A stretch of 21,703 bases of DNA from positions 1-21,703 of IMG/VR virus record IMGVR_UViG_3300025057_000050, one strand, 5' to 3'. The DNA comes from a virus. Every line of letters starts with the position of its first letter. Position 1 is the first letter of the stretch. The notes beneath the pieces are model-generated. The model searched no databases. It was given only the letters and a program-made list of their open reading frames with translations, and was not told the origin of the DNA. Shown piece after piece: positions 3,973 to 13,027 of the stretch. Position numbers and translations under genes: made by a program.

Positions 3973-4878
3973 TTAAGGAATTGTGATTGTTACCGAAGGG
4001 ATCGCGCTGAAGTCGTAACCGTTTTTAGATGGCGTTAAGCTTAACACGTCGCCGGTTGTTTCAGCACTGAACGAGAATACATAAACACCTGCGCTTGATT
4101 CTGTAACGCCTGAAATCGTAACCGAACCAGGAGTTGGCGAAACTTCTTCAAGTGAAAAATCCCCAGCGATTAAGTCCTCAACTGGATCGCCGTAAGGATC
4201 AACTAAAGTCATTGTGAAACCAGTTGTTGAAATTGCCGAAGCCGTTCCGCTAACGTCTAACAACGAATAGAAATCTTCTAATGGCGAGAATCCCGAATCC
4301 AAGTCGCTTGCTTCTAAAACTCTAAGGTCCGCATCGTCTTCGATTTGTCTAAAGTTGAAATTCAATTCGATTTTTTCCGAAGTTGAATACGTCGGTTTTA
4401 CTAATCTATTGAAGTAACTTGCTTCGTCAACCAAAATCGGATAAAGATCCGTATCCCCGTCGCATTTCTTATAAATAATATTATCGTCCTTGTCGATAAT
4501 GTAAACACCGAATTTTACATTTTCCCAGCTTTTTAGCTGCGATAAATAGATTGTTCCTTGTTGGATTGCGTGACCTACAAAGTTTCTTGTCCCCCTTCTT
4601 GTTTCAATAACTCTACCCGAATCTAATGTTTCAACCTCCGGATCAGCTCTTTCGTCCGTAACGTTGTCAAGTTCTACAATCGGATAAAATCTATCCTTCG
4701 CGTTCGCTTCGTTGAATTTAGTAATCCAATTCGATAGCGTTGCCGCGTTTGCAAGCGAAATTTTATTTTTTGTTCCGTCTGCTGCATATTCCGGAACGAA
4801 AACCAATCTTTTTGCGATTGCCATTTTTGACGGACAACCCGGTTTTCCTAAGTCTACATAATTTGTTGAACAACTCAT
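3973..4878 (-). CDS. Major tail (tube) protein with C-terminal Ig-like domain
   Basis: 301 residues. Roughly the first 200 form the probable tube subunit, starting MSCSTNYVDLGKPGCPSK, with tube-like features such as strands alternating with acidic loops (IYLSQLKSWENVKFGVYI). From about residue 205 there is a Ser/Thr/Gly/Val-rich all-beta segment (SGTASAISTTGFTMTLVD, later SSAGVYVFSFSAE) that looks like a bacterial Ig-like or carbohydrate-binding decoration, which is common at the C-terminus of siphovirus tube proteins and exposed on the tail surface. Position between connector genes and tape measure agrees. The N-terminus is rich in Cys (C3, C15). The 68 bases upstream are AT-rich with no clear promoter. 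Confidence 0.8.
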   Translation of the reverse strand: MSCSTNYVDLGKPGCPSKMAIAKRLVFVPEYAADGTKNKISLANAATLSNWITKFNEANAKDRFYPIVELDNVTDERADPEVETLDSGRVIETRRGTRNFVGHAIQQGTIYLSQLKSWENVKFGVYIIDKDDNIIYKKCDGDTDLYPILVDEASYFNRLVKPTYSTSEKIELNFNFRQIEDDADLRVLEASDLDSGFSPLEDFYSLLDVSGTASAISTTGFTMTLVDPYGDPVEDLIAGDFSLEEVSPTPGSVTISGVTESSAGVYVFSFSAETTGDVLSLTPSKNGYDFSAIPSVTITIP

Positions 4879-4946: not shown

Positions 4947-5663
4947 CTAACAACACAAACAATTTAACGCGTTCGACATTGGGACGTCGATTTCTATTCC
5001 GACACCGGTTAAATGGTTGTCGAATATAACGTCAGAATTTGTTTGTCCGTTTCGAATTACACGAACAGACCATTTCGAAAATTTTTCAACTCTATAACTT
5101 TCGTCCTGGATATAAACGCCGCGTTCTTTCTCTAATTGGTTGACAAATTCCTCGCTCAATTCCTCCATTCGGTCCAAAACTTCCGTGTAAATTTCGGAAA
5201 TTGTTTTGTCGAAATGTTCGCACATATCCATGAAATAAAGCCTCAAAGTCGGCGTTCGCTGGATTATGTCGTTTTTATCGCGATTCTTTACAATGTTTTT
5301 AACCTCGAATAATATAATGGCCGGATAGTTGTTTCGCTGATCCGATTCCGTGTTTCTTTCGTTGTTTATGTCGACTGGGTTTCCGTAAAAGAAATAAGGA
5401 AAATTCGCCGTCCATGAAGTCGCCGCGCTTAAATCGGTCGAACTTAAAACTTTTATCGACGTATTCGAAACAACTTCTCTAACAAGTGAAGAAGAACCAA
5501 GAACACTAATGTAATGCCCAGAAACGACATCGAAAGTGTTTGTTACGTTTAAAGTGTAAATTCCCCCGCCTTCATTCACAACGGACGAAATTGTTCCCGT
5601 CCTTTTGTTGCGTAACTTGGTCACGACTGAATCGATCAATTGTTCTTCGGTTGTTCTTGCCAT
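4947..5663 (-). CDS. Head-tail joining / tail completion protein (238 aa), tentative
   Basis: An N-terminal helix (residues 1-20) is followed by a beta-rich insert at about 22-90 (SSVVNEGGGIYTLNVTNT...), then a mixed domain with LRLYFMDMCEHF and a long helix (IYTEVLDRMEELSEEFVNQLE). It ends in a cysteine pair, LNCLCC. Position directly after the adaptor gene and before the tube gene is where tail completion or terminator proteins lie, so this role is inferred from order. The insert is clearly similar to one at the end of the preceding protein. The gene starts one base after the stop of that gene. Confidence 0.7.
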   Translation of the reverse strand: MARTTEEQLIDSVVTKLRNKRTGTISSVVNEGGGIYTLNVTNTFDVVSGHYISVLGSSSLVREVVSNTSIKVLSSTDLSAATSWTANFPYFFYGNPVDINNERNTESDQRNNYPAIILFEVKNIVKNRDKNDIIQRTPTLRLYFMDMCEHFDKTISEIYTEVLDRMEELSEEFVNQLEKERGVYIQDESYRVEKFSKWSVRVIRNGQTNSDVIFDNHLTGVGIEIDVPMSNALNCLCC

Positions 5664-5913
5664 ATTACCAAATTCCTATTTTATTCAACTTCGAAAAATT
5701 CCACAAATCGAATATTTCGTAACTAATCGAAACCGCCCCCGAATAACTTTTTCCAGTTGCTCCGGTTATGTCGAAACTCGTATCGGCTACAATATTTGAA
5801 AATGTGTATTCGTCGCCTTCAATCTTTACGGTTGCCCCGTCCACCATGTAACGAGTATCCGAAACATTAAAAGTAAAAGAGCCGCCCCCATTGTCCACAA
5901 CCGAAGTGGAAGT
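5394..5913 (-). repeat. Two copies of a beta-rich module across a gene boundary
   Basis: Residues about 160-224 of the 241-aa protein (5719-5913) and 22-90 of the 238-aa protein (5394-5600) share a pattern: TSTSVVDNGGGSFTFNVSDT against GTISSVVNEGGGIYTLNVTN, later VDGATVKIEGDEY against VSGHYISVLGSSS, then ADTSFDIT against SNTSIKVL. The DNA also matches in part, as in GTTGTGGACAATGGGGGCGG against GTTGTGAATGAAGGCGGGGG. Confidence 0.75.
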
Positions 5914-6390
5914 TCTTGTTTGTTCGTCGTTGTCATAAATAAATTTATAGCAGCTATGATACAATTCAATTGCTTTATTGTACCTCGTTTTTATTAATCG
6001 TGAAATTTCTTCCATCGAAGCGTTCGCGCTTGCTTGACTCGCTCCCTTTACCTGGCCTACGATTGCGTTTTGAAACGATTGTTCACGAACGAAATTGAAC
6101 CAGGTAAACAAACGAAGCATTTTTTTTACCCCTACGAAATAAACCGATTCGTTTTCGCCGTTTTCATTCTCAACCGTGTAATTGTAACCGTTTAATAAAT
6201 CGGTCCATTTTTGAAGCGTTGGCGTTGGTAATTGCGCAACAAATTGAATGTAAAGCGTATCGCCTAACAACGAACGAAGGAATTTTTCTTCCGTTTCGTC
6301 AATGTAACTTTGCAAATCGGTATCGACCGAATTGTTGCGAGTTAATTTTAATTCGCCCGCGCTGAAGTCCGCTATTGAAATAATCGACAT
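5665..6390 (-). CDS. Head-tail connector/adaptor protein (241 aa)
   Basis: The N-terminal ~155 residues are helical, with IDETEEKFLRSLLGDTLYIQF and a second part, LFTWFNFVREQSFQNAIVGQ. This is the style of the Bacteroidetes phage adaptor that docks under the portal (HK97 gp6-like in position). Residues ~160-224 are an added beta module with a GGG turn, and the protein ends in a short Trp/Phe-rich tail (FDLWNFSKLNKIGIW). The gene lies just after an intrinsic terminator and upstream of the tail completion gene. Function is assigned by order and fold style, not by a diagnostic motif. Confidence 0.7.
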   Translation of the reverse strand: MSIISIADFSAGELKLTRNNSVDTDLQSYIDETEEKFLRSLLGDTLYIQFVAQLPTPTLQKWTDLLNGYNYTVENENGENESVYFVGVKKMLRLFTWFNFVREQSFQNAIVGQVKGASQASANASMEEISRLIKTRYNKAIELYHSCYKFIYDNDEQTRTSTSVVDNGGGSFTFNVSDTRYMVDGATVKIEGDEYTFSNIVADTSFDITGATGKSYSGAVSISYEIFDLWNFSKLNKIGIW

Positions 6391-6719: not shown

Positions 6720-8006
6720 TTATGGAGTTTCCAAAGCAGCTTCAGCAGTTGAGAAAGTACCAGTCACGAAACAAGTTGTATCATTAGTTTCGATTAAAAC
6801 TTCTCCCCTCCATTCTGCAAGGATTGTCATCATGTTTTCGCGGAAGTCGTTCCCGTTTCTTCCCATTTCAACAGTGATTCCGCCTTTTTCAAGAATTAAC
6901 GCTTTGTTGAAAGCTCCAACTAAGAAATCCCCTTGCGTGATCGCAGTCGTTTCGATAATTGGAATACCGTCAATGTTCATAGTTGAACCAGCTTGTAACA
7001 CTCTTTGAACGTAACGTTTGTCAGTCGAAGAAACTTTTTCAAACTTCAATCCAGTAACGTCGCTTGGATGCATTACGATTGCTAAGTTCGAAGCGTCTTG
7101 CTCTGCAATTTTGATTTGATTAACAGCCGCCGCGATTACATCCACTTCGTTTGCATTGTCCACCGCGTTAGCGAACGCACCAGCAGCGAACGCAGTTGCT
7201 TGCGTGATAACCCCGTTTAAGTTTGTTCCAGTACCGTTACCGCCTAAAACTTGTGCGTCAACTCTAATAAATAAACGAACGATTAATTTGTTTCTGAACC
7301 AAGATTCAAACATTGCGTCGTCGTCTAGCATTTCAGTTGAAACTCTGAAATATGCAGTTTGCTTCAATAAGCTAACAGACGAAACCGCAAATTCGTTGTC
7401 GATTTGGTTCTTAGCAGCCGCTTCAGCAGTTCCAGCCGCCGCACCTTCTTGATTTCTTTCGAAAGCCCATTCAACAGTATTTCCCGAAACTGTTAATTTT
7501 GGGATAAGGTCGTAAACTCTTGGTTGTCTTTCAGCAATGTTGTTGATTCCTGGAAGTCTTACCGCTTGCGGCATTGTACCAGTAACCGACCCCGCGAAAG
7601 TCATATCGCCAACCGCTTTTCTTTCAATATCGAAAGTTACCCTTTTGTTCCCTTGTAAAAATTCGCTTCTTGCGTCCCCTTTTAAAGAACCTAAAGTTTT
7701 CGAAACTGAATCTTCAACCGATTTAACTTGAGATCCAGCAAGCGAACCGTCTTGTAGTTTTCCAAGAATGATTCCTTGTTGTTTCACTGCGTTTCTTAAA
7801 GATTCAACTTCACGCGATTTTAACGCCTCGATTTCTTTTTTCAAGTCGTCTGAAACGTTTGCGTCTTTTTTCGCAGCTTCTTCGATTGCCGCCATTTTTT
7901 CTTTTAGTTGGTTTTGCTCCCACGTTAATTTCTCAACGTAGTACTTTTGCAACTCAACTTCATTCATTTGTGCTAAAACTTCCGCACTCTTTAATTCAAA
8001 AGCCAT
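6720..8006 (-). CDS. HK97-family major capsid protein
   Basis: 428 residues, the usual length for an HK97-fold capsid precursor. Residues ~10-100 are charged coiled coil (KYYVEKLTWEQNQLKEKMAA, KKEIEALKSREVESLRNAV), matching the delta scaffold removed by the prohead protease. The shell domain follows, with PQAVRLPGINNIAERQPRV, the conserved strand KLTVSGNTVEWAFE, an E-loop-like Ala/Gly-rich region and the P-domain helix NEVDVIAAAVNQIKIAEQ. It ends VLIETNDTTCFVTG. The protease gene lies just upstream (11-base gap) and an intrinsic terminator follows, as expected for the most abundant virion protein. No HK97-type crosslink was tested for. Confidence 0.95.
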   Translation of the reverse strand: MAFELKSAEVLAQMNEVELQKYYVEKLTWEQNQLKEKMAAIEEAAKKDANVSDDLKKEIEALKSREVESLRNAVKQQGIILGKLQDGSLAGSQVKSVEDSVSKTLGSLKGDARSEFLQGNKRVTFDIERKAVGDMTFAGSVTGTMPQAVRLPGINNIAERQPRVYDLIPKLTVSGNTVEWAFERNQEGAAAGTAEAAAKNQIDNEFAVSSVSLLKQTAYFRVSTEMLDDDAMFESWFRNKLIVRLFIRVDAQVLGGNGTGTNLNGVITQATAFAAGAFANAVDNANEVDVIAAAVNQIKIAEQDASNLAIVMHPSDVTGLKFEKVSSTDKRYVQRVLQAGSTMNIDGIPIIETTAITQGDFLVGAFNKALILEKGGITVEMGRNGNDFRENMMTILAEWRGEVLIETNDTTCFVTGTFSTAEAALETP

Positions 8007-12102: not shown

Positions 12103-12497
12103 TCTCCCAGCTTCTTTTTTATTTCAAGCAGCTTTTCCAAATCGTTTGATTCGAGCGCGTTTAGGTCGACTGTTTTTTGTTCGATTGACCCCGAATGTTG
12201 AACCTTGTCTTCTCGCTTGTCAGCCCAACCGAAGCGGTTCTTCATGTTCATGTAAAACAACGTTGCTGAAAAATCTTTATTCTCTAAGTTTACTCTACCT
12301 TGCTTTAACCACCACCCCTTTGAAAAATCTTCTCCTTTTTTTTTGGAGTCTAAAAACTCAGGGTATTTATCACACCAATTATAAAATGTTTGTTTACAAA
12401 TCTTTAATTCATAACATACTTCTTCTATACTCATTCCTTCGTACATTAATTCGATAAGTTTCTGACAAAGTTCTTTTGTGTATTTTGTAGGTCTCAT
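12099..12497 (-). CDS. terS: Terminase small subunit
   Basis: A 132-residue DNA-recognition subunit that starts packaging. Residues ~8-45 form a helix-turn-helix (LCQKLIELMYEGMSIEEVCY then ICKQTFYNWCDKYPEF). A middle helix (FSKGWWLKQGRVNLENKDFS) leads to NRFGWADKRED, common in small terminases, and a Gln/Leu/Lys-rich C-terminus probably binds TerL. It overlaps its neighbours by ATGA on both sides. Codon use changes within the gene: the part upstream of about 12290 (N-terminal half) has few CpG, like the HNH gene before it, while the C-terminal part has the CpG-rich composition of the late genes. Confidence 0.88.
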   Translation of the reverse strand: MRPTKYTKELCQKLIELMYEGMSIEEVCYELKICKQTFYNWCDKYPEFLDSKKKGEDFSKGWWLKQGRVNLENKDFSATLFYMNMKNRFGWADKREDKVQHSGSIEQKTVDLNALESNDLEKLLEIKKKLGE

Positions 12498-13027
12498 AAA
12501 ATACTATCTTTTTTAGACATATTCACAGATGGGTTTAATAATTGAATATTTGATTTTGTGTGCTTACCTCCTTTTGATAATGGAATGATATGATCGATAT
12601 GGTAATCGTGTTTTATACATACTCCACTTAATGCGCATTTGTAGTTTTGTTTAATCATTAATTCTTTTATAAATTTTGAAGTGACGCTTCCGTCTGACGT
12701 TGTTCTTTTCAACGCTCTTCTTTCAGAATTTAATGCTTTTACCTTTGCTTTACCGTCTTCTGATGAATATCTTTTGCGTTTATATTCGTTAATTAAATCT
12801 TTGTTTTTTATTTGATATTCTTTAACCTTTTTTTTGTAAGATTCTTTTTGCTTTAATTTTCTGTAATGGTCTCTATTTTTAATATAATAAAGCTTTGCGC
12901 AATCTTTACACCTAGACTGATATCCAGTTTTAGCTCTATTATCCTTTGCAAAATCTGTTATTTCTTTTTGAGTTTTACAAGAATTACAGAAAGTTGTTTG
13001 TTCAAGTGTTTTGCTAGGTCGCGCCAT
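12494..13027 (-). CDS. HNH endonuclease, homing-like
   Basis: 177 residues. The HNH core at ~130-170 reads CALSGVC, then HIDHIIPLSKGGKH (H143, D145, H146), then SNIQLLNPSVN (N160). An N-terminal element, CNSC (14-17) and CKDC (40-43), may bind zinc and is followed by a long Lys-rich linker (~50-110), suited to DNA binding. The second Cys pair found in many HNH cores is missing, but the catalytic His pair is kept. The gene is AT-rich with few CpG and sits inside the terminase block, overlapping terS by ATGA. HNH genes next to terminases are common and can be packaging cofactors or selfish homing elements. Composition favours recent arrival. Confidence 0.88.
   Translation of the reverse strand: MARPSKTLEQTTFCNSCKTQKEITDFAKDNRAKTGYQSRCKDCAKLYYIKNRDHYRKLKQKESYKKKVKEYQIKNKDLINEYKRKRYSSEDGKAKVKALNSERRALKRTTSDGSVTSKFIKELMIKQNYKCALSGVCIKHDYHIDHIIPLSKGGKHTKSNIQLLNPSVNMSKKDSIL

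Follow-up and report, generated by a model that had tools for sequence, protein, structure and literature searches.

Do two adjacent proteins in the neck region of an uncultured tailed phage carry the same structural module and, if so, do the two copies work as a pair? The question was raised by an earlier note on a 21.7-kb virus record (hereafter the window, i.e., the whole stretch of 21,703 nucleotides that was analysed). It had claimed that the C-terminus of a 241-aa protein (A) and the N-terminus of a 238-aa protein (B), encoded next to each other, share a module of about 65 residues. Tandem duplication of that module was taken to suggest that the two proteins lie opposite each other or have a partner in common, or that the neck is decorated with repeated surface domains.

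The two adjoining genes and their probable products

The genes of the window follow on the minus strand in the order terminase, portal, S78 protease, HK97 capsid protein, A, B, tail-tube (major-tail-protein) candidate, and further tail genes (Table 1). A gap of 1 nt separates the stop codon of A from the ATG of B, and in this gene order no stopper-sized gene was found between the capsid and tail-tube genes. In the related locus L002 (4668-5441), the frame of B is open upstream, forming a 257-aa ORF that overlaps the end of A by 56 nt, which puts the start of B in question. Near the terminase genes, an HNH-type endonuclease-like gene was read from the sequence at 12494-13027. The tail-tube candidate has a C-terminal Ig/invasin-D3-like domain at residues 213-299 (Pfam Invasin_D3, E 3.2e-6, 28 bits, below the cut-off of 33), and the tail-tube gene of locus L020 encodes a similar C-terminus.

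Table 1. Coordinates of the genes and features discussed, numbered along the window.
Feature	Position	Strand	Size or residues	Basis or remark
Tail-tube (major-tail-protein) candidate	3973..4878	minus	301 aa	Position, Pfam Invasin_D3
Protein B	4947..5663	minus	238 aa	
Core of B, predicted beta-beta-alpha-beta-beta (tail-terminator-like order)	4980..5327	minus		AlphaFold, low confidence, pLDDT 41-67
Module in B	5382..5603	minus	about 21-94	AlphaFold, Foldseek PDB, alignment with module of A
Protein A	5665..6390	minus	241 aa	
C-terminal tail of A, terminal Trp	5668..5706	minus		Trp kept in 9/9 relatives (alignment)
Module in A	5707..5925	minus	about 156-228	AlphaFold, Foldseek PDB/BFVD, alignment of A proteins
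Capsid gene	6720-8006			A directly downstream, on the neck side

Protein A belongs to DUF6712 (Pfam PF20459, E 2.3e-6, 28 bits against a cut-off of 25, residues 40-156), and the A protein of L002 scored above that of the window. The AlphaFold model of A (nine relatives; overall pLDDT 81) contained helices at residues 20-51, 88-111, and 119-153 and a beta-hairpin at 68-86 (strands 68-74 and 80-86), with a barrel inserted after the last core helix and ahead of the conserved C-terminal Trp tail. The protein is adaptor-like, since it is encoded just downstream of the capsid gene and combines a helical core with a beta-hairpin as in solved adaptors, and it is probably the head-tail adaptor. Its best 50 structural matches in the PDB fell mostly on the barrel, with no solved adaptor among the matches listed. 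The literature searched yielded nothing on DUF6712, a family listed by Pfam as of unknown function, for which an adaptor role is now likely.

Protein B is encoded directly before the tail-tube candidate, and the same order was observed in L021, L022, and L037-L039. In its AlphaFold model (seven relatives; overall pLDDT 61), a barrel follows helix 1 and precedes the terminator-like core. A strand reading 'YPAIILF' resembles 'FPAVAVY' of lambda gpU by eye only. The core gave no profile match to gpU (hhalign probability 0.1%), a test that is not strictly defining given that terminators diverge widely, and B was not found in any database family. Because of the missing gpU match, B is described here as terminator-like by position and was not filed as a terminator; gene order and the low-confidence model suggest that it is probably a tail terminator to which a barrel has been added.

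A homologous beta module in A and B

Local alignment of the two modules (BLOSUM62) extended over 82 ungapped columns with 23 identities (28%) and reached a score of 99. In 5000 shuffled alignments, the mean score was 35 and the maximum 75 (Gumbel p 2.4e-7), so the similarity did not fall to the random level that the earlier note had named as refuting it. Profile-profile comparison of the A modules of three phages (window, L002, and L019) with the B modules of six phages gave an E of 3.6e-5, and profiles that had been re-cut gave 6.8e-6 with a probability of 85%, compared to a best E of 1.2e-3 and a best probability of 19% among 200 column-shuffled control profiles. Comparison of the A module with the core of B, included as a control, gave nothing. 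When the ORFs of 50 aa or longer in the window and 39 loci (2464 in total) were searched with an HMM of the A modules, B proteins belonging to this lineage were the only matches outside A (E 1e-7 to 1e-6). The conserved stretch spans approximately 65-70 residues, the first 54 of which are the most similar. A and B thus carry one homologous beta module, at the ends of the two proteins and at positions 5394-5913, as had been proposed.

The proposed tandem duplication was not demonstrated: the module of A sits inside the protein, ahead of its conserved C-terminal tail. At the DNA level the two modules are 42% identical, and they share 7 of 23 codons vs. 7.4 expected. A recent tandem duplication or gene conversion was ruled out on these grounds.

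The fold predictions agreed with the alignment. The module was modelled with a pLDDT of about 90 in A (strands A172-175, 187-190, 193-201, and 205-208) and mostly 85-94 in B, with one block at 66 (strands B35-40, 51-54, 57-65, and 69-73), and in the two separate models the strands lie in the same register, shifted throughout by 136 residues. The predicted folds therefore did not differ, both being of the same barrel class. In Foldseek searches of the PDB, both modules matched six-stranded barrels, namely the F1-ATPase N-terminal barrel, riboflavin synthase, and alanine racemase, and that of A additionally matched the FCCH half-domain of ubiquitin E1 (UBA1/UBA6; rmsd 2.8, about 81 columns, E 0.02). 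From known structures and the alignment lengths, we take the matched stretch of E1 to be the FCCH half-domain and that of F1 to be the N-terminal barrel. The E values of the PDB matches were only 1e-3 to 5e-2, with probabilities up to 1.00, and alignments of 70-80 residues with an rmsd near 3 recurred. Since a Pfam scan of the three A modules gave no match to the FCCH model, the module is termed FCCH-like only. The six-stranded fold is common to the module and the barrels of E1 FCCH, F1-ATPase, and riboflavin synthase; there is no sequence-profile match between them, and no enzymatic role is implied.

The listed structural matches are closed barrels and not Ig sandwiches, and the Pfam models Big_9 and Cadherin_5 matched the A modules only with E 0.06-0.12 over 24 residues. 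Within BFVD, the same barrel was found in tail-fibre, baseplate, and collagen-repeat proteins, indicating that the fold is common on virions. One BFVD entry, A0A6J5NA89 (413 aa, uncultured phage), matched A over 263 columns, and a protein of this size could be a fusion of A and B or contain several barrels.

Distribution of the module among relatives

A capsid-seeded scan and a B-profile scan recovered only nine A and seven B sequences, all on IMG/VR fragments. The module was present in both proteins in the window and L002. In L019, whose capsid protein is 54% identical, it was present in A, and no B was found within the 7.1-kb fragment. Five loci (L021, L022, and L037-L039) encode an A protein of 166-169 residues that lacks the module, together with a B protein that carries it. 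In L020, A is devoid of the module, and the next gene after it encodes the tail-tube protein. The relatives hence show all four states that the earlier note had proposed to look for (both, A only, B only, and, within the L020 fragment, neither), indicating that neither module requires the other; the barrel looks like an optional bolt-on rather than part of a dedicated matching pair. The functional pairing suggested by the earlier note was accordingly not supported, and an obligate pairing was ruled out by L019 and the L021-type relatives.

In a comparison of the window with L019, conservation was higher in the A module (42%) than in the A core (27%). Module-bearing A proteins were split from module-free ones in a tree of the A core (support 97/95), and in a tree of the modules those of A formed one side of a branch (96/94); both trees carry a long-branch warning. 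The barrel of A looks like a single gain.

Two fragments differ further in gene content. Downstream of its module-bearing A gene, L019 (4426-7084) encodes different structural proteins (120 and 284 aa), possibly of another tail type. In L020 (7486-8964), no B-like gene was found anywhere in the fragment, and a terminator is either missing or encoded elsewhere. Wider searches added little. A tblastn search of 50,697 phage records with A, B, both modules, and the tail-tube candidate returned nothing meaningful, and for the modules nothing even at E 10. Profile comparison of A, B, and the module with PDB sequences gave chance-level matches only, scans of genome contigs with portal and terminase found no relatives, and a scan of viral contigs for the module pattern matched only two near-identical contigs.

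Possible role of the barrels and comparison with known necks

Our preferred explanation, for which belief and doubt are about evenly balanced, is that optional FCCH-like barrels stand on the outside of the adaptor A and the likely terminator B, where they reinforce the neck and/or bind the host. A would be a dodecameric adaptor under the portal (12 copies expected) and B most likely a hexameric tail terminator capping the tail tube (6 copies expected), each with one six-stranded barrel that presumably points outward. A would have gained its barrel in a single insertion, in the lineage that comprises the window, L002, and L019, downstream of the last core helix and ahead of the conserved C-terminal tail. 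Together, the barrels would form an outer layer of the neck that strengthens the joint between adaptor and terminator, attaches weakly to the host surface, or does both, as external beta-domains do on the necks and tails of other phages. A and B may come into contact, because no gene the size of a stopper separates the capsid and tail-tube genes here and the adaptor of T5, which also has no stopper, docks on the terminator (PMC11313276). The decoration with beta-domains seems to run along neck and tail, since an Ig/invasin-like domain likewise forms the C-terminus of the tail-tube candidate. The low-confidence core of B, with no gpU match, weighs against this explanation, as does the L020 fragment, where the lack of B would be odd for an essential terminator. 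Further points against it are that the structural matches listed for A include no solved adaptor and that few A and B sequences were recovered.

It is unlikely that B is instead a fusion of stopper and terminator, in which the N-terminal barrel would be the stopper (head closure) and the C-terminal core the terminator, the barrel of A being a similar but unrelated fold that was gained later. Such a fusion would fit the lack of a separate stopper gene between the capsid and tail-tube genes, the beta-barrel core of known stoppers (PMC12886913), and the retention of the barrel in every relative of B that was found (L002, L021, L022, and L037-L039). However, the module of B gave no profile signal against lambda gpFII, the barrel matched FCCH, F1, and riboflavin-synthase types with no stopper among the PDB matches listed, and the presence of the same module in the adaptor A of this lineage indicates that the barrel is not bound to a stopper role.

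Contact between 12 barrels of A and 6 of B across the adaptor-terminator joint, the first of the earlier proposals, is distinctly improbable. The genes are adjacent, a neck with no stopper would bring A and B into touch as in T5 (PMC11313276), and the A module is nearer to the B module of its own lineage than to those of other phages. This is opposed by the loci in which one module occurs without the other, namely L019, where no B was found, and the five with the module in B only, and by a similarity that is old and bears no sign of co-conversion. We likewise consider it distinctly improbable that A and B acquired a common phage barrel independently and with no shared function: the fold is widespread in the tail proteins of BFVD, only 28% of the residues are identical, and identity at the codon level is no higher than chance, but the ungapped alignment over 82 residues and an HMM that finds only the lineage's B module in 2464 ORFs favour closer kinship. 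That, in a siphophage neck with no stopper, barrels of one family on adaptor and terminator interlock, as a collar that would replace the missing stopper ring and bridge the mismatch between 12-fold and 6-fold symmetry, is highly improbable.

For the preferred reading, optional decoration of the exterior of A and B, the closest precedent is the neck of Staphylococcus phage 812, which makes the earlier note's suggestion of a neck "decorated with repeated surface domains" plausible by analogy. According to PMC12886913, its adaptor consists of a helical core, a beta-hairpin, and an external beta-sandwich, and its adaptor, stopper, and terminator bear one external beta-sandwich each. The likeness lies in the anatomy of the adaptor, the extra beta-domain on the terminator, and the decoration of consecutive neck proteins. 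Phage 812 differs from the virus studied here in being a myophage that has a stopper as well as separate decoration proteins, and its extra domains are beta-sandwiches whose mutual kinship is not stated in the available part of that source, whereas the barrels described here are recognisably homologous.

Decorated neck proteins and shuffled virion domains, neck proteins included, are already known (PMC10684548). In the literature searched, we found neither a homologous barrel on both the adaptor and the probable terminator nor a paper that connects the FCCH fold with domains of phage virions. With one small barrel in two successive neck proteins and four states of presence and absence, these phages offer a natural test case for whether the decoration of the neck serves structure or adhesion.

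Phage T5 provides a second comparison: it lacks a stopper, and its adaptor p144 docks directly on the terminator p142 (PMC11313276). No stopper gene was seen in the window either, and the adaptor would bind the terminator directly; in contrast, the available part of that source describes no barrel on p144 or p142 outside the terminator core. In mycobacteriophage Douge, Ig-like domains on the capsid and tail tube bind host glycans (PMC13033339). The module resembles the Ig-like additions of phage capsid and tail-tube proteins in being an optional beta-domain that occurs in some relatives only (Fraser 2006, as cited in PMC10684548), but it is a barrel rather than an Ig fold, and it is carried by the probable adaptor and the probable terminator, not by capsid or tail-tube proteins.
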